52,778 bases of DNA from positions 1-52,778 of the forward strand of contig JACQZF010000089.1 in NCBI GenBank assembly GCA_016213945.1, in the 5' to 3' direction. The DNA comes from Nitrospirota bacterium. Lineage in GTDB: Bacteria; Nitrospirota; Thermodesulfovibrionia; UBA6902. A program made the translations under genes and the position numbers. Numbering within the stretch: the stretch's first letter is position 1; every line of letters starts with the position of its first letter. The notes under the pieces are model-generated. The model saw nothing but the letters and a program-made list of their open reading frames with translations, ran no database searches and was not told the origin of the DNA. This document shows positions 9,456-51,481 of the stretch, in pieces.

Positions 9456-9485
9456 TGCCAAAATGGCAAAATTGCCATTTTGATG
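9456..9485. promoter_or_regulatory. Candidate enhancer (UAS) for a sigma-54 activator
   Basis: A perfect palindrome TGCCAAAATGGCA (9456-9468) is followed 4 bases later by a degenerate copy TGCCATTTTGATG (9473-9485). The first centre lies about 79 bp upstream of the -24 element of the pilZ promoter. The same palindrome occurs at the same distance from the sigma-54 promoter of the tetrahaem cytochrome gene (50054-50066). Confidence 0.6.
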
Positions 9486-9540
9486 CATTCCTTTTAATTG
9501 CTGAAGTTGCTAAACCCGTTAATTAACTTAGATATTTTTC

Positions 9541-9556
9541 CGGCATATTTTTTGCA
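9541..9556 (+). promoter_or_regulatory. Sigma-54 promoter of the PilZ gene
   Basis: CGGCATATTTTTTGCA has the invariant GG and GC separated by 10 bases and matches the TGGCAY-N5-TTGCA consensus except for the first base. It lies 27 bases before the ATG, so the start site would be near 9566. Confidence 0.65.
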
Positions 9557-9582: not shown

Positions 9583-9909
9583 ATGGAACGAAGAGCTTTT
9601 GAGAGAATTGACACAAATATTACCGCAAGATATTTCTTCGGCAATATGTTTTACACTGGAAATATCTTAAACATTTCTGAAAGAGGAATGTTGATAAATA
9701 CCAGGAGATGTCTTCCTTCTGAATCTATGTTTGTTGTAATTATACGTCTGGAAAGTAAGCTTCTTAAGGTGGTTGCCAAGGTCAGGCGTTTAAAGAAAGG
9801 CAATGATCATTACGACGGGATGGGCGTTGAACTTTTAAGTACGTCTGTTGAATATCTGGATTTCATCAAAAGCTTGAAGAATGTGAAGTCCTTCACAAAT
9901 TTATCGTAG
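9583..9909 (+). CDS. PilZ domain protein (c-di-GMP receptor)
   Basis: 108 aa, a stand-alone PilZ domain. The RxxxR motif (R4-A-F-E-R8) and the NISERG form of the (D/N)xSxxG motif (about 30-35) are both present, so c-di-GMP binding is likely. Such small proteins act as adaptors controlling motility, secretion or exopolysaccharide; the target here is unknown. It is a single gene, divergent from bioB and convergent with the acyl-CoA ligase (1 base between the stops). It has its own sigma-54 promoter and upstream palindromes, so it is probably switched on by an NtrC-type activator. Confidence 0.9.
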   Translation: MERRAFERIDTNITARYFFGNMFYTGNILNISERGMLINTRRCLPSESMFVVIIRLESKLLKVVAKVRRLKKGNDHYDGMGVELLSTSVEYLDFIKSLKNVKSFTNLS

Positions 9910-32757: not shown

Positions 32758-34320
32758 ATGCTGAAAAAACTCGGGAAAAGTATTACAATCGCCAATGCAA
32801 TCGCATTTACAGTAGTAATAATCGTCGGTGGAATAAGTATTTACCTCACCAAAAATATCCTGCACAATACTTATAAAATCGAAAAATTAAGCCAGGATAT
32901 TTTGACGGTTGACAGTATCCATTCGGATGCTTACAGGTTAGTGCTCTCCATGCATCATTTCCTCATAGAACAGGACAGGCTTTATTCACAGGAGGCTATG
33001 GAGGTAATCTCGAAGCTGACGAAAAAAGTTGAGGACTATAAGGACGATGAATTTAAGGAGCTGGCTGAAGGGGAAAATCTGGAAGTCGCGCTGTTGGATA
33101 CAATTCTAAAAGATGTAAAAGGACTCAAGTCTATCCATCAAATAATGGAAGGATTTTCCAGTACCGGCAAGTTTGATAGGGACGAGCTTATAGCTCTGGA
33201 GGAATACGCTTATTCCATTGAGGCAAACACTGCCAGGATTAATAAAATCCATTTGGACAAGATAAACAACTGGACCAGCGAATCGTTGAGCAACATGTGG
33301 CTGATCCTGTTTATATATCTTGTATTTATTACAATAGGCGGATTATCTATTTATGCCGGGCATGTGATCCTTTTGAAAAAGGTGGTGAATCCGATTAAAG
33401 CGCTTGCGACGGCCACTATCGAATTTGCTGAAGGTAAGCTCGACAAGAGGGTCTACACTGATTCCCGGACCGAAATAGGCCTCCTTTATCAGTCCTTTAA
33501 CAATATGGCGGAGAAGCTCCAGGAAAATGATGAGGTCCTGAGAAAGTTCAATGAGGAACTTGAAAGAAAGGTACAGGAGAGGACGCTGGAATTGCAGAAG
33601 GCCAATGAACAACTGCAAAAAACTCAAAAGGCATTGATCAGGACTGAAAAAATAGCCGCGGTAGGGCAGATTGCGGCAGGCGTTACTCATGAAATAAAAA
33701 ACCCGCTGAACTCGTTGTCCATAAACACTCAAATGCTTTTAAGAGAGCTTTCCGCTGAATTCGGTCCGGCCTCGTCTACTGTAGAGACTGCATCTCTTAT
33801 CAAGCAGGAAATATACAGGATTAACAACATACTTGAGGAATTCGTCAAGTTCGCAAAGCTGCCGGAGCCGCAGTTTATCGACAACGACGTCAACCATGTC
33901 ATCGCGGAAGTTGTCGATTTGATCTCCCTCTCCGCGCAGCAGTCCGGGATAAAAATTCAATTATGTCCCCAGGAAAATATTCCAGCGTTTAAATTTGACG
34001 CGCGGCAATTTAAAGAAGTTTTGATAAATCTTGCCCAGAATGCCGCAAGGGCGATGAAAAACGGCGGGGCGATGGAAATAAAAACAAATAAGGTGGATGA
34101 TAATGTTATTATAACCGTGTCTGACACAGGAGAAGGTATCCCCCAGAAAAACCTTGAGAAGATATTTTCACCGTTTTTCAGCACCAGAGAGGGAGGCCTT
34201 GGGCTTGGACTTTCGATTGTCCAGAGGATAGTGGAGAGCCACGGCGGGAAAATAAATTGCTTAAGCAATGTCGGGGAAGGGACAGTTTTTGAAATAACTC
34301 TCCCGCTTGAAAGAACTTAG
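32758..34320 (+). CDS. Membrane sensor histidine kinase (HAMP, HisKA, HATPase)
   Basis: 520 aa. The membrane segment at 12-31 is followed by a helical periplasmic sensor domain (about 32-178, chemoreceptor-like four-helix pattern, with a His pair in LSMHHFLIEQ). A second membrane segment (181-207), HAMP (about 208-260), a coiled coil, HisKA with phospho-acceptor H311 in GVTHEIKNPLNS, and the ATPase domain with NLAQNAARAM, DTGEGIP and GGLGLGLS follow. The cognate regulator gene starts 33 bases downstream. The signal is unknown. Its position next to the cytochrome cluster suggests a role in its control. Confidence 0.93.
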   Translation: MLKKLGKSITIANAIAFTVVIIVGGISIYLTKNILHNTYKIEKLSQDILTVDSIHSDAYRLVLSMHHFLIEQDRLYSQEAMEVISKLTKKVEDYKDDEFKELAEGENLEVALLDTILKDVKGLKSIHQIMEGFSSTGKFDRDELIALEEYAYSIEANTARINKIHLDKINNWTSESLSNMWLILFIYLVFITIGGLSIYAGHVILLKKVVNPIKALATATIEFAEGKLDKRVYTDSRTEIGLLYQSFNNMAEKLQENDEVLRKFNEELERKVQERTLELQKANEQLQKTQKALIRTEKIAAVGQIAAGVTHEIKNPLNSLSINTQMLLRELSAEFGPASSTVETASLIKQEIYRINNILEEFVKFAKLPEPQFIDNDVNHVIAEVVDLISLSAQQSGIKIQLCPQENIPAFKFDARQFKEVLINLAQNAARAMKNGGAMEIKTNKVDDNVIITVSDTGEGIPQKNLEKIFSPFFSTREGGLGLGLSIVQRIVESHGGKINCLSNVGEGTVFEITLPLERT

Positions 34321-34353: not shown

Positions 34354-35700
34354 ATGAAGCCGTCAATCCTGATAGTAGATGATGACAAGGCCGTTCGCGA
34401 GAATCTGGCAAAATATCTTTCCGGCGAATATATAACCTACACCGCCTCTAACGGTTATGAGGCCATCAAAAAGGTAAATGAGAACAGCGATATCGAAGTC
34501 ATCCTGAGCGATTTAAAGATGCCTGAGATGGACGGTATCGAGCTTCTGGAGAAAATAAAAAGCAGCAACAAGGACGTTGTTACCGTTTTTGTTACCGGAT
34601 TTTCCACGATAGAATCCGCTGTTGACGCGATGCGCAAGGGCGCATATGACTATCTTACCAAACCCATTGACCTGAACAAACTCGAAATAACCATCAAGAA
34701 TGCCCTTGAGAACAAAAAACTAAGGTCGGAAAATATCATGCTGAAGCAGCAAATCAGGGAGAAGTTCGACGCCACTACGCTGATCGGCAGTTCAAGAAAA
34801 ATTAAAGAGATCATGGACCTGGTAAAGCGTGTGTCAAACACAAAGGCAACCGTGCTGATATTAGGTGAGAGCGGAACTGGTAAGGAGCTTGTGGCAAATA
34901 TCATTCACTACAACAGCCTGGTCTCAAACGGCCCCTTTATAAAAGTCAATTGTTCCGCCCTGGCTGAAGGCGTTCTGGAAAGCGAGCTCTTCGGACACGA
35001 AAAAGGCGCATTTACCGGAGCGTTGTACATGAAAAGGGGAAGGTTTGAACTTGCTGACGGCGGCACATTGTTCCTTGATGAAATAGGAGACCTGCCTCCC
35101 TCCATCCAGGTGAAGCTGCTCAGGTTTTTGCAGGAATCCGAATTCGAAAGGGTAGGGGGCACAAAGACGATGAAGGTCGATGTAAGGATCATCTCCGCTA
35201 CCAACAAAGACCTTGAGCATCTCGTTAAGGAAGAAAAATTCAGGGACGATCTTTTCTACAGGCTGAAGGTCGTAACTATAGAGGTCCCTCCGCTCAGGGA
35301 CAGGAAGGAAGACATACAACTGCTTGTGGATTATCATCTCAGGAGATTCTCTGAGATCCACAATAAGAAAGTAAAAGGCATAACCGCCGACGCCATGAAG
35401 GTTATAAAATCATACAACTGGCCCGGTAATATAAGGGAGCTGATGAACTGCCTGGAAAGCGCGGTTGTCATGTCTCTCGGTGACATGATAGATGTCGATG
35501 CATTGCCTCCCTTCCTCACTATCAGGCAGGCGGAACAGTCGGCCCTGCCGAAATCCGCGGCAAATCTTTTTGAGATCGAAAAGAAGGCCATCTATGAAGC
35601 CTTAAAGAAGAGCCAGGGGAATAAAGCGGAGGCTGCCAGGATATTGGGAATCGGCTTAAGGACCCTCTACAGGAAACTGGAACAGTACGGGGAGATTTAG
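34354..35700 (+). CDS. NtrC-family sigma-54 response regulator
   Basis: 448 aa. Receiver domain (1-120) with phospho-acceptor D53 in LSDLKMPEMDG. The AAA+ domain (about 140-370) has Walker A GESGTGKE, the sigma-54 contact loop GAFTGA and the Walker B-like GTLFLDEIGDLP. The Fis-type helix-turn-helix at the C-terminus ends NKAEAARILGIGLRTLYRKLEQYG. All parts needed to activate sigma-54 promoters are intact. It is paired with the upstream kinase. Candidate targets in this window are the two sigma-54 promoters with shared upstream palindromes at 9.5 and 50.0 kb; this link is inferred. Confidence 0.95.
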   Translation: MKPSILIVDDDKAVRENLAKYLSGEYITYTASNGYEAIKKVNENSDIEVILSDLKMPEMDGIELLEKIKSSNKDVVTVFVTGFSTIESAVDAMRKGAYDYLTKPIDLNKLEITIKNALENKKLRSENIMLKQQIREKFDATTLIGSSRKIKEIMDLVKRVSNTKATVLILGESGTGKELVANIIHYNSLVSNGPFIKVNCSALAEGVLESELFGHEKGAFTGALYMKRGRFELADGGTLFLDEIGDLPPSIQVKLLRFLQESEFERVGGTKTMKVDVRIISATNKDLEHLVKEEKFRDDLFYRLKVVTIEVPPLRDRKEDIQLLVDYHLRRFSEIHNKKVKGITADAMKVIKSYNWPGNIRELMNCLESAVVMSLGDMIDVDALPPFLTIRQAEQSALPKSAANLFEIEKKAIYEALKKSQGNKAEAARILGIGLRTLYRKLEQYGEI

Positions 35701-35705: not shown

Positions 35706-36281
35706 TCATTTCTGAGCGGTTGTCAGCCTGCTCAACTCTTTTTCAACACTCTCGATCCGGGAAAGTAAAGTTGGGAGATCTTCTTTTTTCAGTCCCTGAA
35801 GATCGCAATCCCCAAGCTTTTCGGAGACTTTCGTATATTTCTCGTTGATGATCCTGAATCTTTCCTTCAACTCTTTCAACATGCTGTCGAGGCATTCCGC
35901 GGTATCTTTAAAATCATCTTTCCCTCTCAATGCTATTTCTGTTGTAAGGTCTCCTTTTGCGGCTTTTGCTATGTCCTTTGACATCCTGTACAACGGGCCG
36001 GAGGATTTTCTCATCATCCATAATGCAATGATAATCAACAATGCGGAGACGAATATGAAACCGGTGATATTGATTTTAATGAACAGCGGCCTGAGGATGT
36101 CCCCTGTTGTTTGGGCGCTGATGTGCGTGCTCCACATCAGCCCCTCCAGTTCTTGCCTAACAAAAAAATTGAAGACCGCGGCGGCCGCAATGCTCCCCAA
36201 AAGCGACACAACCACAAACAGGAGGATGATTTTTACCTGGAAGCTTGCGTCGATGAGATATCTGCGTCTCCTGATTTTCAT
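35706..36281 (-). CDS. HAMP-domain membrane protein without output domain (first copy)
   Basis: 191 aa. Two membrane helices (about 16-38 and 70-89) enclose only about 30 periplasmic residues. Then come a HAMP domain (about 90-145: SSGPLYRMSKDIAKAAKGDLTTEIALRGKDDF) and a coiled coil to the end. There is no kinase, cyclase or methyl-accepting domain. The 'GPLYR' HAMP start is shared with the paralogue at 37101-37670. It is the last gene of the cytochrome operon, 10 bases after the 7-haem cytochrome. The function is unknown; it may be a membrane-signal adaptor or a scaffold for the cytochrome. Confidence 0.8.
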   Translation of the reverse strand: MKIRRRRYLIDASFQVKIILLFVVVSLLGSIAAAAVFNFFVRQELEGLMWSTHISAQTTGDILRPLFIKINITGFIFVSALLIIIALWMMRKSSGPLYRMSKDIAKAAKGDLTTEIALRGKDDFKDTAECLDSMLKELKERFRIINEKYTKVSEKLGDCDLQGLKKEDLPTLLSRIESVEKELSRLTTAQK

Positions 36282-36291
36282 TTAGCGCTCC

Positions 36292-37056
36292 TTATTTAAT
36301 ATGGCATTCAAGACATAACTCGCTGCCTTTGTTATCAATAACAAGCATGGACTTGTTTTTTGAATATACGTTATGGCAGGTGCCGCAGCCTATTTTCCCT
36401 TCATACAGTTTTATCTCCTCCCTGATCGTATCTGAGGGACGGAACCCGCGCATTTTCCTGGTGCTGATGCTTCTGTATGAAATACCTATAGGGTGTTTTC
36501 CCTCTTTCAGATGGGTCCAGATACCGGCGCCGAGAGAATTTCGCGGTTCTGAAATCTGTTTGTCATGGCATTGGATGCATTCCAGCGACATCCTGTCAAT
36601 GCGTGTGGCGTGGTCGGTTTCCTCATAGGTCCCTTTATGGATATTTTCAAAAACAATGTGCCTTTTTTCGTTGATCTTATGACAGGCGCTGCAGAACACG
36701 ACGCCTCTTACAGGCCGTCTGAGAAAGTAATGTTTCCCTGATGATTGTCTGCTTTCATCAATATGCGCGTAATGACATGTGAGACAGGTAAGCCTGCCGT
36801 CAGACAGCGGCATATCTTTGGGAATGGAAATCGTAGGATAAATGTCCGAGGGGTGCGACTGTGTTTTCGCATATTCCTTATGGCATGTCTGACACGCGTC
36901 CGTAATGTCCGCTGTTATATCGGCAGAGGAAGGCGCCGGGTCAAAGTGACAGAGGGCGCACTCTCCTTTTGAAAATTGATGCGGTCCGCGCGAGACGGAA
37001 TACACGAGCGCCGCTATGCTTAAGAGGAAAATTATAAATACAAATTTATCTTTCAT
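36292..37056 (-). CDS. Seven-haem c-type cytochrome (membrane-anchored or periplasmic)
   Basis: 254 aa. An N-terminal hydrophobic segment (about 5-20) serves as signal or anchor. Seven CxxCH motifs follow: CALCH, CQTCH, CLTCH, CSACH, CIQCH, CGTCH and a final CLECH four residues... near the C-terminus. Further His residues (HPSD, HYFL, HKGT, HPIG) could be distal ligands. It is likely a periplasmic electron carrier linking the inner membrane to the outer-membrane conduit. It is sandwiched between two HAMP-only protein genes with short gaps, which suggests the three work together. I do not recognise a named family. Confidence 0.9.
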   Translation of the reverse strand: MKDKFVFIIFLLSIAALVYSVSRGPHQFSKGECALCHFDPAPSSADITADITDACQTCHKEYAKTQSHPSDIYPTISIPKDMPLSDGRLTCLTCHYAHIDESRQSSGKHYFLRRPVRGVVFCSACHKINEKRHIVFENIHKGTYEETDHATRIDRMSLECIQCHDKQISEPRNSLGAGIWTHLKEGKHPIGISYRSISTRKMRGFRPSDTIREEIKLYEGKIGCGTCHNVYSKNKSMLVIDNKGSELCLECHIK

Positions 37057-37100
37057 TTGAGGATGTCATTCCCGGTTTAGCGGGTTGACGTTGATACAGG

Positions 37101-37670
37101 CTACAGTTTTATTCCGCCTATGATATCTTTTATCCTTTTATCAGAACTATGGATTTTTTCAAGCACTGTTTTTGTTTCTTCGTTATTATCAATTAAGGTC
37201 CCGAGTTCGGTGAGGGACCCCTTTAGCCGTTTTATTTCCAGGGCCAGCTCCGTGACTTTATGGCCGTAGCTGCCGGTCATTTCGTTGATCGCCTCCGCGA
37301 ATGCATTGATCGCGTCCCTGCTCCTGAACTTGATGACGGTATCCAGACTCCCCTCAGCAATGGATTTCGCGCACTGTCTGACCCTGTAGAGCGGCCCGGC
37401 TATGCGGTGAGTGTAAAGGAGGGACAATAAGCCCGCCCCCGCTGCTGTTAAGATGAAAAATGCGGCGCCTATTGAAAAGGTTTTTATAACAAGCGATTCC
37501 CTGATGTCAGTGATGATTGTTATTATAGCGCTGTAATGAGTGTCGAGGGGCTTGTGAATATTGAGATAAAAGACCACGGCATAAACAGCCGTCCCAAAGA
37601 AAATAATAAGCAGCAGCGTTAACAGAAAGTTTCTCAGGAAATTCTCTTTTATGACCTTTTCAGGTTTCAA
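37101..37670 (-). CDS. HAMP-domain membrane protein without output domain (second copy)
   Basis: 189 aa, the same plan as the gene at 35706-36281: two membrane helices (about 13-33 and 61-85), a short periplasmic loop, a HAMP domain starting GPLYRVRQCAKSIAEGSL, then a coiled coil (about 130-185). No output domain. The two copies flank the 7-haem cytochrome gene. They are paralogues by layout, with low sequence identity apart from the HAMP part. The role is unknown. Confidence 0.8.
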   Translation of the reverse strand: MKPEKVIKENFLRNFLLTLLLIIFFGTAVYAVVFYLNIHKPLDTHYSAIITIITDIRESLVIKTFSIGAAFFILTAAGAGLLSLLYTHRIAGPLYRVRQCAKSIAEGSLDTVIKFRSRDAINAFAEAINEMTGSYGHKVTELALEIKRLKGSLTELGTLIDNNEETKTVLEKIHSSDKRIKDIIGGIKL

Positions 37671-37735
37671 CAGATGACCTCTTTATTTTTTTTTACTTAC
37701 ACTATAGGCTGATTGGCAAAATCATATAAACCGCT

Positions 37736-38467
37736 TTATTTGCCCTCGATCACTGCATCGTCAATTAAGACTTTGTATTTGTATCCCGACCCAAGATTAA
37801 CGTCTGTTTTTAAAATGCCCTTAACAGTAAGCACGTCGCCGACGTTTGCGTCAGCAGTCGTTACCGCGACAAGCTTGTTATCGGGCGCTATTCCGGTGCC
37901 GTCCTGCAGGGTGAGCCAGTTTTTCATCAAAATATTTTTACTGACCTTCATGACCTTTCCCCGCACTATTACTTCTTTGTCCTTTAACAGATTTCTTTCT
38001 ATAAATACTTCTTTTATGTATTTGCCGGAGGCTGCCTTCGCTATTTCCCCCGCCTTCGGCGCGGTCACCACGGGTTTTTTCGCGGCGTCTTTCCCTGGAG
38101 CTGACGGAAGCAGTCCGCCCTTTTGGGATTCAGCCTGGAGAATTCTTAATCTGGTAACAAACATGATCCTGTCAAAGGTCCTGCCTAATTCCTTGCTCTC
38201 AAAATTCGTCATTTCAACGCCGCCTAAATATTCAATCTTGTCGCCTGTGGAAATCCCCGCGCTCAAAAACTCCGGCAGGGTCGCAAGCCAGACCTCTTTG
38301 CCGTCTTCCTTTAATTTTATGTAGACGTATTTGGTCCCCTTCTTTGATTCCTCTACAGAGCCTATATGCGATTTTTCCTCAATTTGTGCAGGCTCCTCCG
38401 CGTATAACGCAGCGTCCGCAACCGCAAAAGTAAAAAACATCAGCAAAGCAATTTTGATGACTTTCAT
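37736..38467 (-). CDS. Periplasmic protein with OB-fold-like domains
   Basis: 243 aa. A signal peptide (about 1-23, ending ALYAEE) is followed by two beta-rich regions: about 30-115 (GTKYVYIKLKEDGKEVWLATLPEFLSAGISTGDKIEYLG) and about 155-240 (KEVIVRGKVMKVSKNILMKNWLTLQDGTG...VGDVLTVKGIL). Both have the spacing of small OB-type barrels seen in periplasmic 'GKV..V....G.NW..L.DGTG' proteins. It has no haem motif. It may chaperone or tether cytochromes; that is a guess from the operon position. The linker between the domains is rich in Pro, Ala and Lys. Confidence 0.7.
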   Translation of the reverse strand: MKVIKIALLMFFTFAVADAALYAEEPAQIEEKSHIGSVEESKKGTKYVYIKLKEDGKEVWLATLPEFLSAGISTGDKIEYLGGVEMTNFESKELGRTFDRIMFVTRLRILQAESQKGGLLPSAPGKDAAKKPVVTAPKAGEIAKAASGKYIKEVFIERNLLKDKEVIVRGKVMKVSKNILMKNWLTLQDGTGIAPDNKLVAVTTADANVGDVLTVKGILKTDVNLGSGYKYKVLIDDAVIEGK

Positions 38468-38480
38468 TTAATAACTCCTA

Positions 38481-41354
38481 TCATTTATTGTCTAACATTC
38501 TCTGAAATTCGTTCAGATTTTTGAGCGCGACTTCGTCGGCAGGGTTTAACGTCAGGGCGTGCTTGACTTCTCTGAGCGCTTCCTCAAGTTTCCCCTGTTT
38601 TGCAAGTATGACGGCGAGGTTGTTCCTGAGATTGGGAGAATCCTCGCCGTGCGACACCGCATTCCTGAAACTGCTGTATGCATCATCTATTCTGCCTGTC
38701 TGATAAAACAAAATCCCCAGGTTTGCATAAGCGCTGCCTGCGCCGGGATTAAGCTTAACTGCGGTTTGATAAGATTGAATTGCGCCGTACAAGTCTTTGG
38801 TAAGCATCCTCAGATAGCCGAGCTGGAGAAATGTCAGATAATTATCAGGATTAAGTTCAGAAGACCTGAGAAGGGCGCCTTTTGCGTTTGCAGGCAGATT
38901 GTTTTTTGCAAGGGCTTCACCCCATCTGCCCAGCAGCGCGGCCGCCTGGATTTTCTCGCCTGCTGTTACAGAGACAGCCGGGAATGACTCCTGAGACTTG
39001 TTTTTGTAAAGCTCAGTTACGTTGTCATTTAACGCTGTAGACAAATAGAGCGACTTGGGAGCGCGGTATTCAAGCAGAGGCAGGTTGTCCGTGTTGATCT
39101 CCCCGGTGCCTGCAAACCGTATCAACTCGGACTCTCCGAGAAGAAACGCCTTCAGGATGGTCCAGTCTTCAGTGTAGCCTATCCGCGACATGCTGTCTCC
39201 CACTGCAGGATGTTCTTTAAAGATATTTTCCAGCGCGACAGGGGAGAACGGCAGCTCTTTCATACTTCCTACAAAAATGACATCAGCGTATTCAGGGTCC
39301 ATCCAGAACGTCGTATGAGGGAAGACGGACAGGAAGGTGCGCGCAACGAGCTTGAGGGATTCCACACTCGTGCCGTAAAGATGCATCCACTGGACCATTA
39401 CACCGTCCGGCTTCAGAACGTTCTTTGCATTTACAAAGGCTTCGCGCGTGAAAAGCCTTGAGGAGCCGGCCTGCCATGGATTAGACGGTTCGGATATGAT
39501 GAGGTCATACTTTTTCTTTGTCGTGAGCACATAAGAGCGGCCGTCATCGAGGACCAGATTGAATCTCCTGTCCTTCATGATATTGTAATTTTCCTGTTCG
39601 AAGAAGGCACTGGCCTCTTTCATCGCGGGCTCTATCTCGACGCAGTCAATTTGACTTACATCATGCCGCGCCACTGCGCCTGCTGTTATCCCGCTGGCAA
39701 AGCCTATCACCAGCACTTCTTTTGAGTCAGGCTTAAGAACAAGCGGAAGATGGGCGATAAGCGCCTGTGTGGTCATGTCCCTGAAATTGCCGGCGTCTGT
39801 TTTGCCGTCAACGGCGAGGCGCACATGCTTACCTTCTTTTCTGACTGCAACTGTCGCGATAGGGCCTTCCTTGTAGTAGAGAAGCTCTGTCTTTGAAAGG
39901 CGGTCTTTTATGGGCGTGTTCTGGTACTGGACCGCATAGGCATACGGGCCGCTCGTCATTTTCTGTTTGTCCCACCCGGGCTGCCAGACAAATAAGAGAA
40001 GGAGCATGAATGACGCTGATACAGCGGCAAGAACAGTGTCGCTTTTAAGGCGTTTCTTTTTTAATGAAAATACGGCAAGCGCAACTGCGCATCCTAAGTT
40101 GATCATTATGGTCAGCAGTAACGTGCCCTGGATGCTTAAACGGGGCAGCAACACAAACCCGGCGATGAACGCGCCTATGATGGCTCCGACTGTATTGCCG
40201 GCATATAGAAAACCTATCCTCCTGCCGCTTGTGCCGAACCTTTCGACAACAATAGAGCCGGCAATCGGGAATGATGCGCCCATGAATATCGTTGCAGGCA
40301 CCATGACAACAAAACACAGCAGCGCCTGGGCAGTTAGAAAAATACTGAACGTTTCTCCCGTTGCCGCAAAGAGCCTGACAAAGGCCTCCGGCAGCAGCCC
40401 GAAGAAGGCCGCGGTAACAATGGCAAACAAACCGATTAGCACCTGACACAGGGCAAGAAGGCTTATGCCCCGCTCCCTGTTGTAAGAAATTCTGCTTACA
40501 ACGGCGCTGCCCAAAGCGATGCCCGCGAGAAATGTGGCCAACATTACAGTGAAGGCATATGTGGAGGAGCCGATGATGAGCGTAAGCACGCGTGTCCAGA
40601 CTACCTCATAAATCAGGGCGCACAGCCCGGAGAAAAATAGGGCCGCCGCCGCAAGCAGCGCGCTTGCTGACCAGCCCGAAACTGCAGCATCGCTTACTGC
40701 CGGTCCCAGAGCAGGCTTACTCTCCTGCACCTGCATCTTATAAGCCATGACAAATATGCCAATGTTTATCAGGCCGCTTGCCAGCAGGAGCAGGTTGATG
40801 CCCATTGACTGAAGAAGGAACAAACCGGAGGCGATGGTCCCGGTGACAGCTCCCGCCGTATTTATAAAATAGAGAAGCGAGAGCGCCTTGCCGGTGTTTT
40901 CAGTTTTATTATCGAAGAAGACTTTTGATAAAACAGGAAGCGTCCCGCCCATCATGATTGTCGGCGGGAGAAGCAGAAGCATTGATAATAAAAAACGCAG
41001 CATGGCCGCTTCCCAGAAACCGAATGCCTGCGTGCTGTGGATATACACATAGATTTTCCCGATGGCGGAAAAAATCAGGGGCGTTGTTAGGGCAAAGAGT
41101 CCTATGAAAAGCTCAAGCCATGCGTAAAGCCGCACAGGCCGCCGGACTGCGTCGGCCTTTCTTCCGATGAGGGCTGAACCTATTGCAAGCCCGCACATAA
41201 AGGTCGCCAGGACTGTGCTGACCGCAAGCATGGTGGAGCCGAAAAAAAGCGTCAGCAGCTTTGTCCATACGACCTGATAAATTAACGCCGTAGCGCCGGA
41301 GAGAAAAAACAGGCCGTAAAGTTTTTTATTTTTTGGGGTTGATAAATTCAGCAC
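38481..41354 (-). CDS. Fused MFS-like transporter / spermidine synthase-like / TPR protein
   Basis: 957 aa. The N-terminal part (about 1-445) has about 12 or more membrane helices in two similar halves; each starts with an 'ALIYQVVWTKLLTL..GSTMLAVSTVLATFM.GLAIGS' type repeat (compare ALIYEVVWTRVLTLIIGSSTYAF). The spermidine-synthase-like domain (about 480-740) has VLVIGFASGITAGAV, VEIEPAM, DDGRSYV and IISEPSNPW. Three or more TPR repeats close the protein (about 830-950). The aminopropyltransferase reaction is unproven for such fusions. They are common near cytochromes in anaerobes. It begins 3 bases after the 12-haem cytochrome stop, so it is firmly in the operon. Confidence 0.88.
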   Translation of the reverse strand: MLNLSTPKNKKLYGLFFLSGATALIYQVVWTKLLTLFFGSTMLAVSTVLATFMCGLAIGSALIGRKADAVRRPVRLYAWLELFIGLFALTTPLIFSAIGKIYVYIHSTQAFGFWEAAMLRFLLSMLLLLPPTIMMGGTLPVLSKVFFDNKTENTGKALSLLYFINTAGAVTGTIASGLFLLQSMGINLLLLASGLINIGIFVMAYKMQVQESKPALGPAVSDAAVSGWSASALLAAAALFFSGLCALIYEVVWTRVLTLIIGSSTYAFTVMLATFLAGIALGSAVVSRISYNRERGISLLALCQVLIGLFAIVTAAFFGLLPEAFVRLFAATGETFSIFLTAQALLCFVVMVPATIFMGASFPIAGSIVVERFGTSGRRIGFLYAGNTVGAIIGAFIAGFVLLPRLSIQGTLLLTIMINLGCAVALAVFSLKKKRLKSDTVLAAVSASFMLLLLFVWQPGWDKQKMTSGPYAYAVQYQNTPIKDRLSKTELLYYKEGPIATVAVRKEGKHVRLAVDGKTDAGNFRDMTTQALIAHLPLVLKPDSKEVLVIGFASGITAGAVARHDVSQIDCVEIEPAMKEASAFFEQENYNIMKDRRFNLVLDDGRSYVLTTKKKYDLIISEPSNPWQAGSSRLFTREAFVNAKNVLKPDGVMVQWMHLYGTSVESLKLVARTFLSVFPHTTFWMDPEYADVIFVGSMKELPFSPVALENIFKEHPAVGDSMSRIGYTEDWTILKAFLLGESELIRFAGTGEINTDNLPLLEYRAPKSLYLSTALNDNVTELYKNKSQESFPAVSVTAGEKIQAAALLGRWGEALAKNNLPANAKGALLRSSELNPDNYLTFLQLGYLRMLTKDLYGAIQSYQTAVKLNPGAGSAYANLGILFYQTGRIDDAYSSFRNAVSHGEDSPNLRNNLAVILAKQGKLEEALREVKHALTLNPADEVALKNLNEFQRMLDNK

Positions 41355-41357
41355 TTA

Positions 41358-43136
41358 TTAATATGCCCTTGCGTCATGATTGCTGCCATGACATGTAAGA
41401 TAACATCTGCCGCTGAATGTTCCCGTATCTTCAAACAGCAGTCTCCCCAAACTGTCTGGCGTGACAACCGTGGTATCGAAGTTTATCAAATGCGTATTGT
41501 TTATGGAATTGCCCTGAGTAGAGCTTATGCCGTGTGCGTCGTGACAGATGGAGCAGGGGGCGTTTTCAACTGCCACGTGCCTGTTATGTTTAAAACTCTG
41601 GTCGCTCAGGATGCTGGTCCTATCGTGGCACTTGTAACAGAGATCGTAGTTGTACGGGTTTTCCTGGGTATTATCGAGAGTCGTGTAGTTCCTTTCAAGC
41701 AAATACTGATAACTTGACCCGTGAGGGCCGCGGGGGCCGATAGTATTGTCATTACTATGGCAATCCGTACAGAAAATAATACTCGCGGTTGTATAAGGCG
41801 GAAGGAGGCTTGGGATATTCGGATTAACACCCTGGTTCTCTACGGGGTGATATGATGGGTTTAGGGGGGAGAACTCAAGGCGCGTGTTCATCTGCACGAT
41901 CTGCCTGTCAACATAAAATGTGGTCAACACGTTGTTGTCCGCATGGCACTTGTAACATATCTCAAACTGGTTTGGCGCATTAACAATCTGCTGTCCCGCT
42001 GAATTAATGCCGGTAACGCCGGTGGTCATGCCTGATACCTGCGGCGCGCCTGGCGAGGGGGTTGAATTTGACTGGTGCGGATTGTGGCAATCCTCGCATT
42101 CAACGTGTTTCTGCACGGTCACTGTAAAGTTTTCTCTGGGATTGTGGATGTCCGGGTAGTTCTGAACGGCGTGTTTAAAAGGTTTTGTAAGCTCAGTTTC
42201 TATATTGGTGAATGCTACGTTTCCGTTATGGCAAACAATGCAATTGTCTTCCTCAAAAGTATAGTTGAGGAGCCTTTCATGTTTGCCTGCGGTATGGGGT
42301 TTATGACAGTTTTCACAGCCGTTTTCCGCAACGGTCTCATAAGAAGTATGCGGCCATGGATCTGCGCCGATGCTGTTCCATGAGGCAGTTGAAATTGCGT
42401 GTGAAGAAAGAAACCAACCCTGCTTCTGGTGGCATAATGTGCAAAGGTTTGAATTAATATTTTGCACTACAAGGAATTGGCTGTTGATATTATTATGCGG
42501 GTCATGGCATGAGGTGCACTGTAACTGGCCTGAATTGTCAAGTTTTACCTCCGGTGGAAGCGCGGCGGGGAATGCAAGTTCGCCGTTTGCACCTGCGAGC
42601 GCGCTGTCATAAACAAAAGAGACCGGGTGGTCGTCAGAAAGGTCCGTGCCGAGCTTTGAAGCGCCTTCAGGTATAAACCTGATGCCGCCAACGAAAGGGA
42701 CCTCAGCGGGTTTTGATACCAGAGCGCCAAGCGCAATGGTGCCGTCATGACAACTAAGGCACATTTTAGAGGCCCCTGAAGGCTGCCCTACTGTTGCAAT
42801 AAGAGTTGAGCTTTGATAGGGCGTATAGCTTGCCGTTGAATCATAACGGTTCCAGAGATAGGGAGTATCCCGTCTTGCATGGTGAGGCGCGTGGCAAAAA
42901 ATGCATATTTCCTCTTCTGTCGTTGATTTGATAGTGCCCGGACCGCTTATGGATAAATTGTGTTTTGTATCCACAATGCTTGTCGATACCGACGGCGGAG
43001 GCGGCGGAGGCGGCGGCACAGAAGGAGGCGGTGGAGGTGGTGGTGGAGGCTGGGCTATAAGCGAATCGAGACAAAATAACGATGCCGCTCCTGAAATCAG
43101 AAGTATGATTATAATCTTGTATGCAATGCGTTTCAT
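41358..43136 (-). CDS. Twelve-haem cytochrome c with poly-proline stretch
   Basis: 592 aa. Signal peptide (about 1-29), then a stretch of about 20 Pro/Ser/Val residues (about 30-50), then 11 CxxCH motifs and a last CYLTCH (CX3CH). The first four motifs (CIFCH.PH, LWNRYD, CLSCHDGTIAL, DHPVSF.YD, CTSCHDPH, CTLCH) follow the same order as the tetrahaem cytochrome at 49180-49890. The first third therefore looks like a fused copy of that module. The remaining eight motifs extend it. It is probably outer-surface or periplasmic. The Pro run suggests a cell-envelope-spanning or wall linker. It lies directly after an NHL lipoprotein gene. Confidence 0.9.
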   Translation of the reverse strand: MKRIAYKIIIILLISGAASLFCLDSLIAQPPPPPPPPPSVPPPPPPPPSVSTSIVDTKHNLSISGPGTIKSTTEEEICIFCHAPHHARRDTPYLWNRYDSTASYTPYQSSTLIATVGQPSGASKMCLSCHDGTIALGALVSKPAEVPFVGGIRFIPEGASKLGTDLSDDHPVSFVYDSALAGANGELAFPAALPPEVKLDNSGQLQCTSCHDPHNNINSQFLVVQNINSNLCTLCHQKQGWFLSSHAISTASWNSIGADPWPHTSYETVAENGCENCHKPHTAGKHERLLNYTFEEDNCIVCHNGNVAFTNIETELTKPFKHAVQNYPDIHNPRENFTVTVQKHVECEDCHNPHQSNSTPSPGAPQVSGMTTGVTGINSAGQQIVNAPNQFEICYKCHADNNVLTTFYVDRQIVQMNTRLEFSPLNPSYHPVENQGVNPNIPSLLPPYTTASIIFCTDCHSNDNTIGPRGPHGSSYQYLLERNYTTLDNTQENPYNYDLCYKCHDRTSILSDQSFKHNRHVAVENAPCSICHDAHGISSTQGNSINNTHLINFDTTVVTPDSLGRLLFEDTGTFSGRCYLTCHGSNHDARAY

Positions 43137-43149
43137 TTTATAACCCCTT

Positions 43150-43186
43150 GGCTTTATCAGCCAATAGCTGTCAGCTATCAGCTATG
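43150..43186. repeat. AGCTGTCAGCTATCAGC repeat, partial copy
   Basis: GGCTTTATCAGCC hairpin followed by AATAGCTGTCAGCTATCAGCTATGA, related to the elements at 2758-2847 and 30688-30778. It sits between two genes of the cytochrome operon. Confidence 0.6.
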
Positions 43187-43190
43187 ATAT

Positions 43191-44243
43191 TTACGGCGTA
43201 GAAAGCTCTCCCCCTTTTAAATATTGAAATACCTGTATCCTGTTATTGTATGAATCCGATATATATATCCTGTCATTAATGTCAATGAAAATTCCAGAGG
43301 GAAGCCAGAATTCCCCGTAACCGGTCCCGGGTTTCCCGAAATCCATTAGGAGCCTTCCTTCCTTATCGAATATCTGAACATTATCAAAAAGCGCGTCGAC
43401 AACATAGATATTGCCGTCGCTGTCAACGGCAACACCCCTGGGCCTTGAAAAATACCCTGGACCGTCTCCGGCCCTGCCGAATGTCTTTAGGAACCTTCCG
43501 TCTTCGGTAAAGACCTGGACCCTGAAGTTAAGAGAATCAGTAACAAAGAGGCGGCCCTCTTGCGAGGTGAATATATTTGTAGGGGAGTGAAACAGCCCGT
43601 TTGTGTTTCCTTCTTTTCCTATTACACCTTTGACTTTATGAGCTTCAGCGTCATAGCGTATTATTTCTGAATTGAGCGTGTCCACTACAAGAAGCTCTCC
43701 GGTTTTTTCGTTAAACGTTAATCCCGTCGGCCGTCCGAGCAAACCTCTGCCAAGTTCGCCTGCGTATTTTCTTCCGTTTTCTTTAAAGACCTTGATTACA
43801 GCTTCTTGTGAGTCAGAGATATAGAGGGTGCCATGATTGTCAATCGCAATGCCTATCGGTGATATAAAAGCGGTCCCGTCCTTAGGGAAAGTGTAGTAAG
43901 AATTGTGTTCTTCATCCAGCACATGGACCTGTTTGTGAAAATTGTCCACAACGAAAATGCGTCCTTCCCGGTCTGCTGTAATGCCGTAAGGATTAACGAG
44001 AGGTATTTCTTTCTCGCCCTTCAGGAACCTGAAAAATTTGGCGAAGAAATTCTGTCTGATATTTACATCCTCTGCCCCGGATATTGAATTGACAAACCGT
44101 ATGCGGGGGATTGCAGGAGGCTGGGGCCAGATTATATCAGGCAGGGCCTGTCTCGTCTCTGTAACCTGTTTGAAACACCCCTGCGTAACCGGAAGGAGCG
44201 TAAGGACCAGAACAACCGCAGAAAGTTTTATCAATGCTCTCAT
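43191..44243 (-). CDS. NHL-repeat lipoprotein (beta-propeller), copy 1
   Basis: 350 aa. Lipoprotein signal with lipobox VTQGC (Cys about 23). The mature part is a six-bladed NHL propeller; repeats such as NPYGITADREGRIFVVDNFHKQVHVLD, SRPRGVAVDSDGNIYVVDALFDNVQIFD and LPSGIFIDINDRIYISDSYNNRIQVF-type segments are plain. NHL propellers are protein-binding platforms and are often encoded beside multihaem cytochrome genes. It probably sits at the outer membrane and helps to assemble or anchor cytochromes; that role is inferred. It is similar in plan to the lipoprotein at 46983-48074. Confidence 0.92.
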   Translation of the reverse strand: MRALIKLSAVVLVLTLLPVTQGCFKQVTETRQALPDIIWPQPPAIPRIRFVNSISGAEDVNIRQNFFAKFFRFLKGEKEIPLVNPYGITADREGRIFVVDNFHKQVHVLDEEHNSYYTFPKDGTAFISPIGIAIDNHGTLYISDSQEAVIKVFKENGRKYAGELGRGLLGRPTGLTFNEKTGELLVVDTLNSEIIRYDAEAHKVKGVIGKEGNTNGLFHSPTNIFTSQEGRLFVTDSLNFRVQVFTEDGRFLKTFGRAGDGPGYFSRPRGVAVDSDGNIYVVDALFDNVQIFDKEGRLLMDFGKPGTGYGEFWLPSGIFIDINDRIYISDSYNNRIQVFQYLKGGELSTP

Positions 44244-44261
44244 ATAGTTAACCTTTCCCTC

Positions 44262-46253
44262 TTAGAATGATTCCCTTTTTACATTAACCAGAAAGACATG
44301 GTTTAGACGGCTTTCGTCAGATATCTTGTCTTTTTCATCAGAATAAGTATAGCTGATGTCTCCGTGGTATATGCCGTAAAACCATTGGTAAACAGATGAA
44401 AGTCCCTTTTCCTCTGTTCTTACCGCAGGCCCCGACAATGTGTTCCAGAAACTCTCCACTGTGAGAAAGCTGTTGTCCGAAATAATCCTCTGCAAATTAA
44501 TTCTGGCGCCGTTGGCTTTGTCCGTACCGCCCGTCTCTTTGACAGTTGACTGTCCCGTGCTCCCTGAAATGCTTATAAATAATCTGTCCGTCAGGCTTGC
44601 AGAAATTGTTTCAGATGCCCGCCAGGTTTTGATCGAAATGCTCGAGGAGCGGCTGTCGCTGAAATCTATGACGGTCTTACTCCATTTCCACGTTAATGTT
44701 GCGCCGGCAAACTGACCGTAACTGGCGGTCAGGGTTTCAGGCTCCACACCTCTCAGAAAATGCTGTTTGGAGCGGCTGATCCTGTAATAGAAATCGAGCA
44801 TGTCCCATAAGCTGGCGTTGACTCCGTAGGTGCTGTCAAAGACATAATAATCAAAGGGCGGGTTATTGCGATATTTGTAGTGAATAAAAACAGGGGCGCC
44901 GCTGCCGCATTTATCAGTGGGGCCGTCAATGTTCCCTCCGTTAATGCAGGTTATCCTTACAGAGTCCCCTATTTTAGTTGTTTCGTAATCAAGGCCTGAT
45001 GCATAGATTGCTCCGAAACCGTCAAAACCCGACTTCTCTGTGACCACGATTGAATCAAGTTCGATAAGCTCATTTGCAAGCAGCGTTATTTCGCCGAACC
45101 TGAGATTGACAGGCTCGTCAGTCACGGGGATGAACTCGGAGACAAGATTTAAATCGAAATGCCTGTATGTATGCCCCATATGGGCGCCAAGCCTGCCCCA
45201 GGGGATTTTCCTTGAATAATTCCAGCTTAGGCCGGTTGTAAAGATGTTCTCCTTTCCGCTTTGCGATTGGTTCCTGGTCCCCTCGATATCGAGCGAGGTT
45301 GTAAGGTTTTCATAAAGAAGATGGTCCAGCCCAAACCCGATTCCCTTGAATTCCCTTCTTCCCGCGTTTCCCATATTATTTCTCTCATAACGCACGCTGT
45401 AATTAGTAGTAAGATTTTTGCTGTGCCGCAATGACAGGCTGTCAGCCCAATTCAGTATCCTGCTGGAGGAGAAATCACTCCGGGTGTCCCTTAAGACGAG
45501 AGAAGTATTTAGCGATGCTGTTTTATTCTCCGGGAAGCTGTAGAAATTTTGCAAGGTCACATCCTTTATAAGCGTGCTGAAGGAGGTCCCCCTTTGCGAA
45601 GTAATGTTGTCCGAATATAAGGCCGACAGCCTTGTATCTCCCAGGTGCCTGTCATATTTAGTATCCATTCTAACAGCATTTTCTCTGTTGCTGTTTGAAA
45701 AAAACCCCGTCTGTCTGTTTTCAGTATGATTATAAGACAAGGTCGTGGGGAGCGTCTGGTATTTTATATCAAGGATGGCACGGAAGACGTCTGTTTCCCT
45801 TTCGGTCCGTTCGGCAAAGGAGCTATAAAGTGCTGACATGTATTTGGCCCCGTATAAGGTCAATGTATAGGGTTTATACGGCAGGATTGTGAATTTTGTT
45901 AAGTAGCCCTCAAGAGAGCTTCTCGAACTGTCCGTGCCTTCATCTCCTGATTTCCTGTAGGCCTGATTCCATTCCGGGGAAAATATGAGCGTGTATTGAA
46001 GAAGAGCAGGGTGGTAGACCCAGCCTTCTGTTTCGATATCGAGCCGTTCGGAAAAGGAAGTATGGGTGGACGTGCTTGTCACGGCGCCGTCCCTCTGGTC
46101 ATCTTCATATCTGAATGAAAAATCAACTCCAAGCTTCGGCCTTTCAATATGAAAAGTATCAATGGCATATACTTGCCCTCTGCCGGCGAGCAGGAAGATA
46201 ATTATGCACAACAGGCATATCGCATTTCTGATAAACGGCTTCCTGTAAGACAT
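44262..46253 (-). CDS. Outer-membrane beta-barrel of a putative porin-cytochrome conduit
   Basis: 663 aa from the ATG at 46251-46253; an upstream in-frame TTG (46292) is less likely. A signal peptide (about 1-32, ending GQVYA) is followed by a long run of alternating polar/aromatic strands (SFRYEDDQ, LQYTLIFSPEWNQAY, TLSYNHTENR, LSLRHSKNLTTNYSVRYE, DFYYRISRSK), ending in Phe as barrel proteins do. About 20 or more strands are likely. No CxxCH is present. Its place between haem lipoproteins and NHL lipoproteins fits the barrel of a trans-outer-membrane electron conduit, but it has no clear MtrB/PioB signature. One Cys pair (RITCINGG, TDKCGSG) may form a loop disulfide. Confidence 0.8.
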   Translation of the reverse strand: MSYRKPFIRNAICLLCIIIFLLAGRGQVYAIDTFHIERPKLGVDFSFRYEDDQRDGAVTSTSTHTSFSERLDIETEGWVYHPALLQYTLIFSPEWNQAYRKSGDEGTDSSRSSLEGYLTKFTILPYKPYTLTLYGAKYMSALYSSFAERTERETDVFRAILDIKYQTLPTTLSYNHTENRQTGFFSNSNRENAVRMDTKYDRHLGDTRLSALYSDNITSQRGTSFSTLIKDVTLQNFYSFPENKTASLNTSLVLRDTRSDFSSSRILNWADSLSLRHSKNLTTNYSVRYERNNMGNAGRREFKGIGFGLDHLLYENLTTSLDIEGTRNQSQSGKENIFTTGLSWNYSRKIPWGRLGAHMGHTYRHFDLNLVSEFIPVTDEPVNLRFGEITLLANELIELDSIVVTEKSGFDGFGAIYASGLDYETTKIGDSVRITCINGGNIDGPTDKCGSGAPVFIHYKYRNNPPFDYYVFDSTYGVNASLWDMLDFYYRISRSKQHFLRGVEPETLTASYGQFAGATLTWKWSKTVIDFSDSRSSSISIKTWRASETISASLTDRLFISISGSTGQSTVKETGGTDKANGARINLQRIISDNSFLTVESFWNTLSGPAVRTEEKGLSSVYQWFYGIYHGDISYTYSDEKDKISDESRLNHVFLVNVKRESF

Positions 46254-46308
46254 ATCCTGATTATGTATTCTCCTTTGTAACGCAAGGGGCAAGATATTTT
46301 ACCCGAAG

Positions 46309-46986
46309 TCAAAAAGCCTCATCATAATCTTTTTTCAGTAAAAACCTGTTCATGCCGACATGTGGATTATGGCATGAGGTGCAGTCTTCATCCTTTCTGT
46401 GTTCTTCGGTATCCATAATAAAGCCCTTTATGTGGCATTTCGTGCACATATCCTTTGAATTTCCTTTCAGAAGCAGATACGGATACAGGGATTGATGGGG
46501 ATTATGGCAGGCAGTGCAGATGCCTTCGGATACAGGCCCGTGGACCCACAAGCCCAAGTTAAAAGCGGCACTGACGGATTTAGATGTATGGCAGTCTATG
46601 CACAGCTCTTTAACGGGTAATATAAGCCTTGACACTGTATCAAGGGCGGCTACGGACGGGATATTTTTGTCAGGGGTGTCCAGTTTTCTGCTAAAGGTTG
46701 CAGTGCTTGAAGTGGAATGACACTGATTACACTGCGACGCGCCGTAAGGGCCATGGGCATAAGAGGGGATATCCCTTTTGTCTTTTCTTTTTTTGAGCTG
46801 CTCAGCTTTTGTGATACTGCCTCCCGTTTCAACAGGCTCTTCTTTTCCCGCAAGCGGAGGCACGCCGGTAAAGAAAAAGGTCAATATCTTGTAATTGGTA
46901 TACTTGTCACATCCTGCTATGAAGACCGAGAATAAACACAATAAGCTCATACATGCTATAAATTTATTTCTTCCTGTCAGCTTCAA
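46309..46986 (-). CDS. Five-haem c-type cytochrome, lipoprotein
   Basis: 225 aa if read from the TTG at 46984-46986, which overlaps the previous stop as TTGA. This start gives a classic lipoprotein signal (positively charged MKLTGRNK, hydrophobic core, lipobox FIAGC, Cys 25); another TTG at 47031 is possible. Five motifs follow: CNQCH, CIDCH, CTACHNPH, CTKCH and CTSCHNPH. A Lys-rich linker lies between the anchor and the first haem. It is probably attached to the outer membrane, facing the barrel encoded by the next gene. I do not recognise a named family. Confidence 0.87.
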   Translation of the reverse strand: MKLTGRNKFIACMSLLCLFSVFIAGCDKYTNYKILTFFFTGVPPLAGKEEPVETGGSITKAEQLKKRKDKRDIPSYAHGPYGASQCNQCHSTSSTATFSRKLDTPDKNIPSVAALDTVSRLILPVKELCIDCHTSKSVSAAFNLGLWVHGPVSEGICTACHNPHQSLYPYLLLKGNSKDMCTKCHIKGFIMDTEEHRKDEDCTSCHNPHVGMNRFLLKKDYDEAF

Positions 46987-48074
46987 TTTATTTTTTGCGG
47001 CGTAATGCCTGGAAGGGGAGCGCCTGTCCAATCGCCGAAACCGTATACGTTTATTTTATGCTCTCCGAGCATATTGCCTACGAAGACAAGGTATTTCACC
47101 TTGAAATCCTTGTCAATATATTTTTTGAAATAATCTATGTTCTGGTAGTCAATATGGATGCTGTTTGGCATATACATACTGCCTGGCTCAGGCCCGAATC
47201 CGCCGAAGAAAAGCACGAGTCTGGTAGTCTCACCGTCAAATATCTGCACGTTCTCAAAGGCGGTGTCAACAACATACAGGTAGCCTTCGTCATCGACGCT
47301 TATGCCTTTAGGCCGTGCAAATCCTCCGAGGGTGTCTCCCTGGTAGCCGAAGGTCTTTTCAAATTTACCCAGAGAGTCGAATTTCTGCACCCTGAAGTTA
47401 AAGGAATCGTTTACATATATGCTGCCGTATTTGTCTATAACTATGTGAGAAGGCTTGTACAACTTCCCCTCTTCTGATCCCGCCTCCCCGATAGTCTGCA
47501 CAACCTTCCCTGAGTCCCTGTCAAGAATGATTATCTGGTGTTTATCGAAGTCGCAGACATATATCTTGTTTTCATATACAACCACGTCCATAGGTTTGGC
47601 GAACTGCTCCTCTGAGCCGTAAGCCTTGACATAGTTATTCTGTGCATCAAAAACCAGTATCTGCTTCCGTGTCAAATCTGCTATATACTTATATCCGTCT
47701 TCAGTCACCCATATGCCTCCCGGGCTGCTGATCTGGCCTTCCTTTTCATCTTTTATGTAGTCAAACTCCTTCTTGTCGAGATCCAATATAAGTATTTTCT
47801 TGAAGGTCCTGTCAGAGACATAAATCTTGCCTTTTGCCGTTGTAATTCCGACTGCCCTTGCCACCTGTTTCTGGGCTATTGTCTGCCCGACAAGAAATTC
47901 CATAAGGACGTCCTTCTTCTTTCCCAAATCCTCTTCTGTTGAAATGGACATTAAAAACTGAAGCTTGGGGTTCTGCGGCGGCATTGGATAAAAAACGGTC
48001 TGTATCTTCTGTCTATCGGTTGCGCATCCAAACAATAACAATACAGCTAAAAAACCAAAAAAGTGTTTCTTCAT
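46983..48074 (-). CDS. NHL-repeat lipoprotein (beta-propeller), copy 2
   Basis: 363 aa. Signal MKKHFFGFLAVLLLFGC with lipobox LLFGC (Cys 17). Six NHL-like blades follow, for example VGITTAKGKIYVSDRTFKKILILD, KPSHIVIDKYGSIYVNDSFNFRVQKFD and RPKGISVDDEGYLYVVDTAFENVQIFD-like stretches. The C-terminus has a short extra tail. The start overlaps the previous gene's stop by 4 bases (ATGA). It is a paralogue of the gene at 43191-44243 and probably a binding platform for the cytochromes in the operon. Confidence 0.92.
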   Translation of the reverse strand: MKKHFFGFLAVLLLFGCATDRQKIQTVFYPMPPQNPKLQFLMSISTEEDLGKKKDVLMEFLVGQTIAQKQVARAVGITTAKGKIYVSDRTFKKILILDLDKKEFDYIKDEKEGQISSPGGIWVTEDGYKYIADLTRKQILVFDAQNNYVKAYGSEEQFAKPMDVVVYENKIYVCDFDKHQIIILDRDSGKVVQTIGEAGSEEGKLYKPSHIVIDKYGSIYVNDSFNFRVQKFDSLGKFEKTFGYQGDTLGGFARPKGISVDDEGYLYVVDTAFENVQIFDGETTRLVLFFGGFGPEPGSMYMPNSIHIDYQNIDYFKKYIDKDFKVKYLVFVGNMLGEHKINVYGFGDWTGAPLPGITPQKIN

Positions 48075-49060
48075 TGCTTCTCCTGTTTCTTTTCATTAGT
48101 TGTTTTATCTCCATGGCCAAACGATTCCTCTTTGGAATCTTTGATGCCGGTTGGGTTTTGTGCTTTTTCTGCCTGTCGTTTCAGGTCCTCTTCCCTGCTT
48201 CGTTTCAGTTCTTCCACTGTAGCGTCTGTCCCCGGAAGCGGAGAGGTCTTTATCATGTTAAATACAGGGCTGTACCTGTCATATTCGGCGGTCCTGTGAC
48301 AGGTGGTCGCGCATTTGCCACCGGCGTCCTTTTTTTCATAAGTTAAAGGAAGCATTCTGTTGCCGAAGGGAACATTGTCTCTGACAAGCGCAAAATTATC
48401 CAGGCCGTGCGGGTGATGGCATACTGCGCAGGTCCTGCCTTTTGTTTTATTGACATGAAGGAAATGCAGGTTTCGATTGCCGTTTCTGAACAAGGTGAGG
48501 GAAAGCGTCCTCGGCTCCAAAAGCGCCTGGTCAAAACCTTTGTGACACTTTATGCACAGGGTGTATGCTTCAACGGAAAAGGAGGCATACAATCCCTCAG
48601 GATACTGGAACTTAAGGTGTTTGTAGAAATCGCTTTCATGAGCGTCATGGCATTCAGTGCATTTCCCTTCAGCAAACGGAGTATGAAGCTTCCTGTCTTT
48701 ATCTTTTGATATCACCACAGGGGGCGACTTCTTAAGCTCTTTCTTTAATTCGCCGGAGACAGGGAATTCCTCACTGTGGCATTTTTCACAAAAGGGTTTT
48801 GTTATCAAAGTTATTATTTTAAAAACGTGTTCATCTTCTTTTATGGTCTCATGACACCTGTGACACTGTTTACCGTCTACCCCGGCCATATGAACATATT
48901 TTTTCTTGCCCATGGCTGCATGACATGATGCAGAGATACACGATTCGCCGGGGGTCAGAGTAATTAATTTCTTTTCTTCAGCGGAAAAAGCGGATACAAG
49001 CAGGGAACTTCCGAGAATAATACAGACAAAAAAAATAGAATAAGATTTCATAGGATTCAT
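48071..49060 (-). CDS. Seven-haem periplasmic cytochrome c with unusual CX4CH and CX3CH sites
   Basis: 329 aa, first gene of the long cytochrome operon. Signal peptide (about 1-27, ending AFSAEE; the ATG at 49051 is an alternative start). Haem sites: CISASCH (CX4CH), CHRCH, CEKCH, CTECHDAH, CIKCH, CAVCHHPH and CATTCH (CX3CH). The C-terminal 60 residues are a charged, haem-free tail. The non-standard spacings are known in some multihaem cytochromes and are probably used, since His follows in each. The stop overlaps the NHL lipoprotein start by 4 bases. Its likely role is electron transfer through the periplasm. Confidence 0.88.
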   Translation of the reverse strand: MNPMKSYSIFFVCIILGSSLLVSAFSAEEKKLITLTPGESCISASCHAAMGKKKYVHMAGVDGKQCHRCHETIKEDEHVFKIITLITKPFCEKCHSEEFPVSGELKKELKKSPPVVISKDKDRKLHTPFAEGKCTECHDAHESDFYKHLKFQYPEGLYASFSVEAYTLCIKCHKGFDQALLEPRTLSLTLFRNGNRNLHFLHVNKTKGRTCAVCHHPHGLDNFALVRDNVPFGNRMLPLTYEKKDAGGKCATTCHRTAEYDRYSPVFNMIKTSPLPGTDATVEELKRSREEDLKRQAEKAQNPTGIKDSKEESFGHGDKTTNEKKQEKQ

Positions 49061-49962: not shown

Positions 49963-49978
49963 TGCAAGTGCTATGCCA
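49963..49978 (-). promoter_or_regulatory. Sigma-54 promoter of the tetrahaem cytochrome gene
   Basis: On the minus strand TGGCATAGCACTTGCA fits the TGGCAY-N5-TTGCA consensus at every fixed position, with GG and GC 10 bases apart. The predicted start is near 49952, giving a leader of about 60 bases. Confidence 0.8.
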
Positions 49979-50053
49979 GAATGTAAAGGCTCTAAAATCA
50001 AAAAGTTAGATAACTGAGACTGGTTTTGAACTGCCACTATGACAAGGTAAATT

Positions 50054-50066
50054 TGCCATTTTGGCA
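50054..50066. promoter_or_regulatory. Candidate enhancer (UAS) for a sigma-54 activator
   Basis: Palindrome TGCCATTTTGGCA (the complement of TGCCAAAATGGCA), centred about 82 bp upstream of the -24 element of the tetrahaem gene promoter. The identical 13-mer lies about 79 bp upstream of the PilZ gene's sigma-54 promoter. Confidence 0.6.
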
Positions 50067-51391: not shown

Positions 51392-51481
51392 CAGTTTTCC
51401 TGCAGATATGACAGTGGATTGCTGGTTCTTAAAATAAATGCTGAAGCCAAGATCGATTCGCTTGTCTGCAGTAATTGGAAA

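Follow-up and report, generated by a model that had tools for sequence, protein, structure and literature searches.

In Geobacter sulfurreducens, the sigma-54 control of the PilR/RpoN regulon reaches the genes for pili and for extracellular cytochromes (PMC2725144), and IHF, which has been linked to RpoN promoters, is needed in this organism for a normal cytochrome content (PMC7962754). The system described here resembles the PilR/RpoN regulon (PMC2725144) in that genes for enhancer-binding proteins (EBPs) adjoin their targets. It differs from it in that the PilS/PilR region of the present genome lacks a promoter of the kind described below, the candidate activator is not PilR, and PilZ and MopE-like proteins are among the targets. 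Compared with the IHF system of G. sulfurreducens (PMC7962754), the difference is that a single IHF-like site, known from sequence, is found at a constant position in the majority of promoters. The layout is also similar to that of NtrC/NifA-type promoters, with upstream palindromes, an IHF site before the promoter, a -24/-12 element and an AAA+ activator, but here the pair of sites is fixed about 21 bp apart and the targets are surface and PilZ proteins. The sites of NtrC and NifA differ from the palindrome found here, TGYCA-N3-TGRCA. The FleQ-type c-di-GMP-responsive activators are likewise sigma-54-family activators tied to c-di-GMP and to surface products; in our case, however, the PilZ proteins are targets, and the REC-domain protein proposed as activator is distinct from the FleQ-like protein of the genome (L182), which is also found in genomes that lack the motif. 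A search of open-access papers gave no description of this regulon. On the evidence of the genome sequences, this regulon is new but belongs to a known kind (EBP-IHF-sigma-54), and it connects extracellular cytochromes with c-di-GMP-type effectors in Thermodesulfovibrionia.

The window, a stretch of 52,778 nucleotides from a Nitrospirota bacterium (contig JACQZF010000089.1), contains the 13-mer TGCCAAAATGGCA at 9456-9468 (+) and at 50054-50066 (-), and no further exact copy was found in it or in the genome of 3.5 Mb. Both copies are located upstream of a sigma-54 -24/-12 element, CGGCATATTTTTTGCA (9541-9556, +) before a PilZ gene and TGGCATAGCACTTGCA (49978-49963, -) before a tetrahaem cytochrome gene, as the first-pass annotation had described. 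The distances of 79 and 82 bp given there are right when taken from the palindrome centre to the element; counted between the starts, the values are 85 and 88. The possibility raised at that time, that the 13-mer could be frequent in the genome and not linked to sigma-54 elements, did not hold, since the only two exact copies are both linked. Based on the composition of the window, a Markov estimate predicts 0.005 copies in it, so that the two observed there have a probability of about 1e-5. The same estimate predicts 0.35 copies genome-wide, and, exact 13-mers being short, one could consider a coincidence or copies of a mobile element. Against such an origin stand about 84 promoters with fixed phase, the absence of any match to the reversed-pattern controls, and the conservation of the sites at orthologous genes. 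The enrichment in the genome scans together with the fixed spacing in effect refutes it, and we give it practically no weight. By its sequence context, the shared 13-mer is a real control site, part of a recurrent three-part sigma-54 switch.

At the PilZ gene, the copy of TGCCAAAATGGCA constitutes the distal predicted activator site, at -85 from the -24 element, which is kept in G004 and present as TGYCAN3TGRCA in the PilZ orthologues. The degenerate copy that had been reported at 9473 proved to be real: TGCCATTTTGATG (9473-9485, +, at -68), with an imperfect right half, is the proximal predicted site and is conserved in the PilZ orthologues. It is followed by an IHF-like site with 2 mismatches to YAANNNNTTGATW (9512-9524, +, starting at -29) and by the sigma-54 element. 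The gene (9583-9909, +) encodes a PilZ-domain protein of 108 aa (PF07238, E 1.9e-12) with the RxxxR and (D/N)xSxxG motifs of c-di-GMP binding, the latter as NxSxxG, read from the sequence as RAFER and NISERG; the protein is predicted to bind this messenger. Its orthologues in G004, G017, G026, G027, G035, G042, G044 and G046 present both the distal palindrome, with at most 1 mismatch, and the proximal site, and seven of the eight, G044 being the exception, show the latter as TGYCATTWTGATR at -65 to -68.

The cytochrome promoter, on the minus strand, consists of the distal predicted activator site TGCCAAAATGGCA (50054-50066, at -88), a proximal predicted site TGTCATAGTGGCA (50032-50044, at -66) that was missing from the first-pass annotation, the IHF-like site TAACTTTTTGATT (49996-50008, starting at -30), which matches YAANNNNTTGATW perfectly, and the element TGGCATAGCACTTGCA (49963-49978). 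Two TGYCA-N3-TGRCA palindromes and a sigma-54 element, mostly in the -88/-66 layout, were also observed at the cytochrome orthologues of about a dozen genomes from several genera. The exported tetrahaem cytochrome (49180-49890, -) is the first gene of a conserved operon whose remainder (35706-49060, -) has kept its gene order in at least 10 genomes of several genera. This remainder encodes 5-, 5-, 11- and 7-haem proteins, NHL-repeat lipoproteins, two membrane proteins, and a possible porin of 676 aa. Small membrane proteins without Pfam match, encoded by two genes close to the operon's end (35706-36281 and 37101-37670, -), look like kinase-less sensor domains and are kept in most of the relatives that bear the operon. 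The operon also includes a protein of 957 aa that combines spermidine-synthase-like and TPR domains (38481-41354, -), which the operons of most relatives do not have.

The 13-mer is one instance of the palindrome TGYCA-N3-TGRCA, which is usually doubled, with the copies 19-23 bp apart. Whole-genome statistics were obtained by pattern searches of genomes with reversed-pattern controls; several of the motif-bearing relatives are Nitrospirota / Thermodesulfovibrionia metagenome genomes, and SURF_23 belongs to the genus of the window. The pattern of a single palindrome with GGCAY-N5-TTGC behind it matched about 80 times in 61 related genomes, and its reversed form not once. In the order-level scan, 19 of 47 genomes had real matches (reversed control 0); the match in one further genome, G003, falls within coding DNA and was discounted as a chance occurrence. 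When only the paired palindromes were searched, with no sigma-54 element required, they were present in 21 of 230 genomes of the class, and the reversed pattern again in 0. The paired sites of G089 and G090, from another family, generally lack the fixed -88/-66 layout and were not used; in G090, seven pairs of the TGCCAN3TGGCA type without this layout are found at L509-L514. The 84 unique promoters, from about 20 genomes, have site starts that peak at -66/-67, -77, and -85 to -90 from the -24 element, and the 11-bp steps between these positions place the predicted activator sites on one face of the DNA. Promoters with a single site at -75 to -77, before PAS and other genes, form a subclass. 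In addition, an IHF-like match (YAANNNNTTGATW, at most 2 mismatches) starting at -31 to -29 and in a single orientation was found in 52 of 76 promoters, perfect sites number 9 versus 0.3 in shuffled spacers, and the sequence expected of an IHF site, WATCAANNNNTTR, lies between enhancer and promoter above chance. The promoter elements have the GG-N10-GC signature of sigma-54 with TGGCAY-N5-TTGCW, which is kept at the PilZ and cytochrome orthologues, and the sites upstream have the features expected of EBP enhancers, being palindromic and phased with the promoter. Judged by these patterns, the shared control layout is both real and general.

The window holds a third promoter of the same kind, at 51325 (-), of which the first-pass annotation made no mention. 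It presents the predicted activator site TGTCATTGTGACA at -68 (51381-51393, -), a weaker copy of it, TGTCATATCTGCA, at -88 (51401-51413, -), and the sigma-54-like element TGGTATAACTCTTGCA (51310-51325, -); G017 has TGGTATAGCATTTGCA at the corresponding place, with identical layout. The gene behind this promoter (51126-51278, -) is the remnant of a REC-only response regulator gene that is intact at that place in G017. This broken gene has retained its own sigma-54 promoter and predicted activator site (gene and promoter, 51126-51325, -).

The first genes behind the motif promoters (n=72, in overlapping groups) encode MopE-like exported proteins (23), proteins with at least two haem motifs (about 19), PilZ proteins (11), PAS proteins (6), ankyrin proteins (5) and response regulators (4). 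One such promoter, in G026, precedes a MopE-like protein with 22 haem motifs (L521:3371-7000). The co-regulation of PilZ and cytochrome genes by one activator, suggested earlier from the two sites of the window, appears to be the best reading of these data and can be considered well supported by sequence, with 11 PilZ and about 19 multihaem genes carrying the motif. As the same sigma-54 switch stands before the genes of surface cytochromes, exported metal-binding proteins and PilZ proteins, electron-transfer proteins and the second-messenger response are probably switched on together. The regulon would thereby be defined and testable in organisms without genetics, and whether c-di-GMP-type effectors are tied to extracellular electron transfer in Nitrospirota would become directly accessible to experiment. 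It also predicts which exported proteins of unknown role (MopE-like, ankyrin) work alongside cytochromes, and it supplies a search motif for finding further cytochrome systems.

We propose, with a probability of roughly two thirds, that an NtrC-type activator, most likely the protein encoded at 34354-35700, acts with IHF and sigma-54 as a switch that co-activates the cytochrome operon, the MopE-like genes and the PilZ genes. The 13-mer would be the binding site of this sigma-54-dependent activator, whose dimers would occupy two TGYCA-N3-TGRCA palindromes about two helical turns apart, with their centres some 60 and 80 bp before the -24 element. IHF would bend the DNA between the palindromes and the promoter, and the AAA+ ring of the activator would then open the sigma-54 polymerase complex at the -24/-12 element. 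One activator, probably phosphorylated by the kinase encoded at 32758-34320, would in this way turn on the surface cytochrome operon, the exported MopE-like proteins and the PilZ proteins, and electron-transfer proteins and c-di-GMP-type effectors would be made together because all of them depend on it. REC-only paralogues under the control of the activator itself may damp the response by serving as a phosphate sink. The complete scheme, in which a single two-component system governs a surface regulon (cytochrome operon, MopE-like and multihaem exported proteins, PilZ proteins) with REC-only phosphate-sink feedback, and so ties extracellular electron transfer to c-di-GMP-type signalling in uncultured Thermodesulfovibrionia, is offered tentatively, at somewhat less than even odds.

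The candidate activator (34354-35700, +) has the domains of an NtrC-type response regulator: a REC domain, an AAA+ domain (Sigma54_activat) with the FTGA loop in invariant alignment columns, and a Fis-type HTH (HTH_8). Its gene and that of its partner, a HAMP histidine kinase (32758-34320, +), are convergent with the end of the cytochrome operon, an arrangement kept across genera. Orthologues of the regulator are 69-85% identical, with a nearly invariant recognition helix (GIGLRTLYRKL), and paralogues reach at most 50%. Among the 47 genomes, 15 have both regulator and motif promoters, 3 the regulator alone, 4 the promoters alone, and 25 neither (p=2.9e-6 for co-occurrence, a value that ignores phylogeny and is partly driven by operon linkage). 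G023 was counted as regulator-positive since two pieces of the regulator, with 72% identity, were found in it, and it was dropped as a counter-example. Furthermore, the REC-only proteins behind motif promoters in G012, G017, G020 and G027 have as their best match, among the REC domains of 27 EBPs, that of 34354-35700, with 147, 140, 89 and 131 bits, respectively, versus 100, 82, 58 and 85 for the runner-up EBP. The first-pass annotation had pointed to this same regulator; synteny, co-occurrence and the REC-only paralogues speak for it, and the few genomes with sites or regulator alone speak against it. Taken together, it is likely to be the activator.

Sites without a detected regulator were observed in G004, G012, G029 and G035, and also in G042, which has PilZ sites only. 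G004 is the most difficult of these for the proposal: it is 96% complete and of the same genus, has kept the PilZ promoter and several others and lacks both the regulator and the cytochrome operon; given that most EBPs common to it and to the window genome are 90-99% identical, the loss of the regulator may be recent. G012 is an incomplete draft, in which the regulator is absent, and in G029 and G035 the cytochrome contigs end before the place where the regulator is expected. Conversely, the regulator is present in G007, G015 and G031, where no motif promoters were found; in G007 the contig ends before the place.

The sites of G004 and G042 could mean that the regulon is real and is activated by a different NtrC-type protein encoded in the genome, such as a widely conserved one, 34354-35700 controlling something else. 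There are about 26 EBPs in the genome, and one of them, L197 (contig C70), adjoins a regulon promoter in G000 and G004. However, the widely conserved EBPs L197, L192, the FleQ-like L182, L183 and the PilZ-EBP L189 are equally present in motif-less genomes; since they do not follow the distribution of the motif, they were rejected as candidates. PilR (L190) was likewise discarded, as no motif promoter lies around it: no sigma-54 element over the threshold was detected in 19.9 kb of the PilS/PilR locus, unlike what a PilR regulon would lead one to expect. With the REC-only members of the regulon best matching 34354-35700, we regard control by a different EBP as unlikely. The same two genomes would also be accounted for if two or more paralogous activators shared the site, with the cytochrome operon under 34354-35700 and the PilZ genes under a different one, a division with which the single-site subclass at -75 to -77 (PAS and other genes) would agree. 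Of the EBPs profiled, however, no other one had both a closely similar recognition helix and an occurrence tracking the motif, and sequence, spacing and IHF site are common to the PilZ and cytochrome promoters, which makes such a division less probable still than a different EBP; 34354-35700 as the one activator is the reading we prefer. As a separate observation, L189 (G000:C92:4461-5924) is a sigma-54 activator in which an N-terminal PilZ-like domain is accompanied by a zinc-ribbon-like stretch, and it is conserved family-wide.
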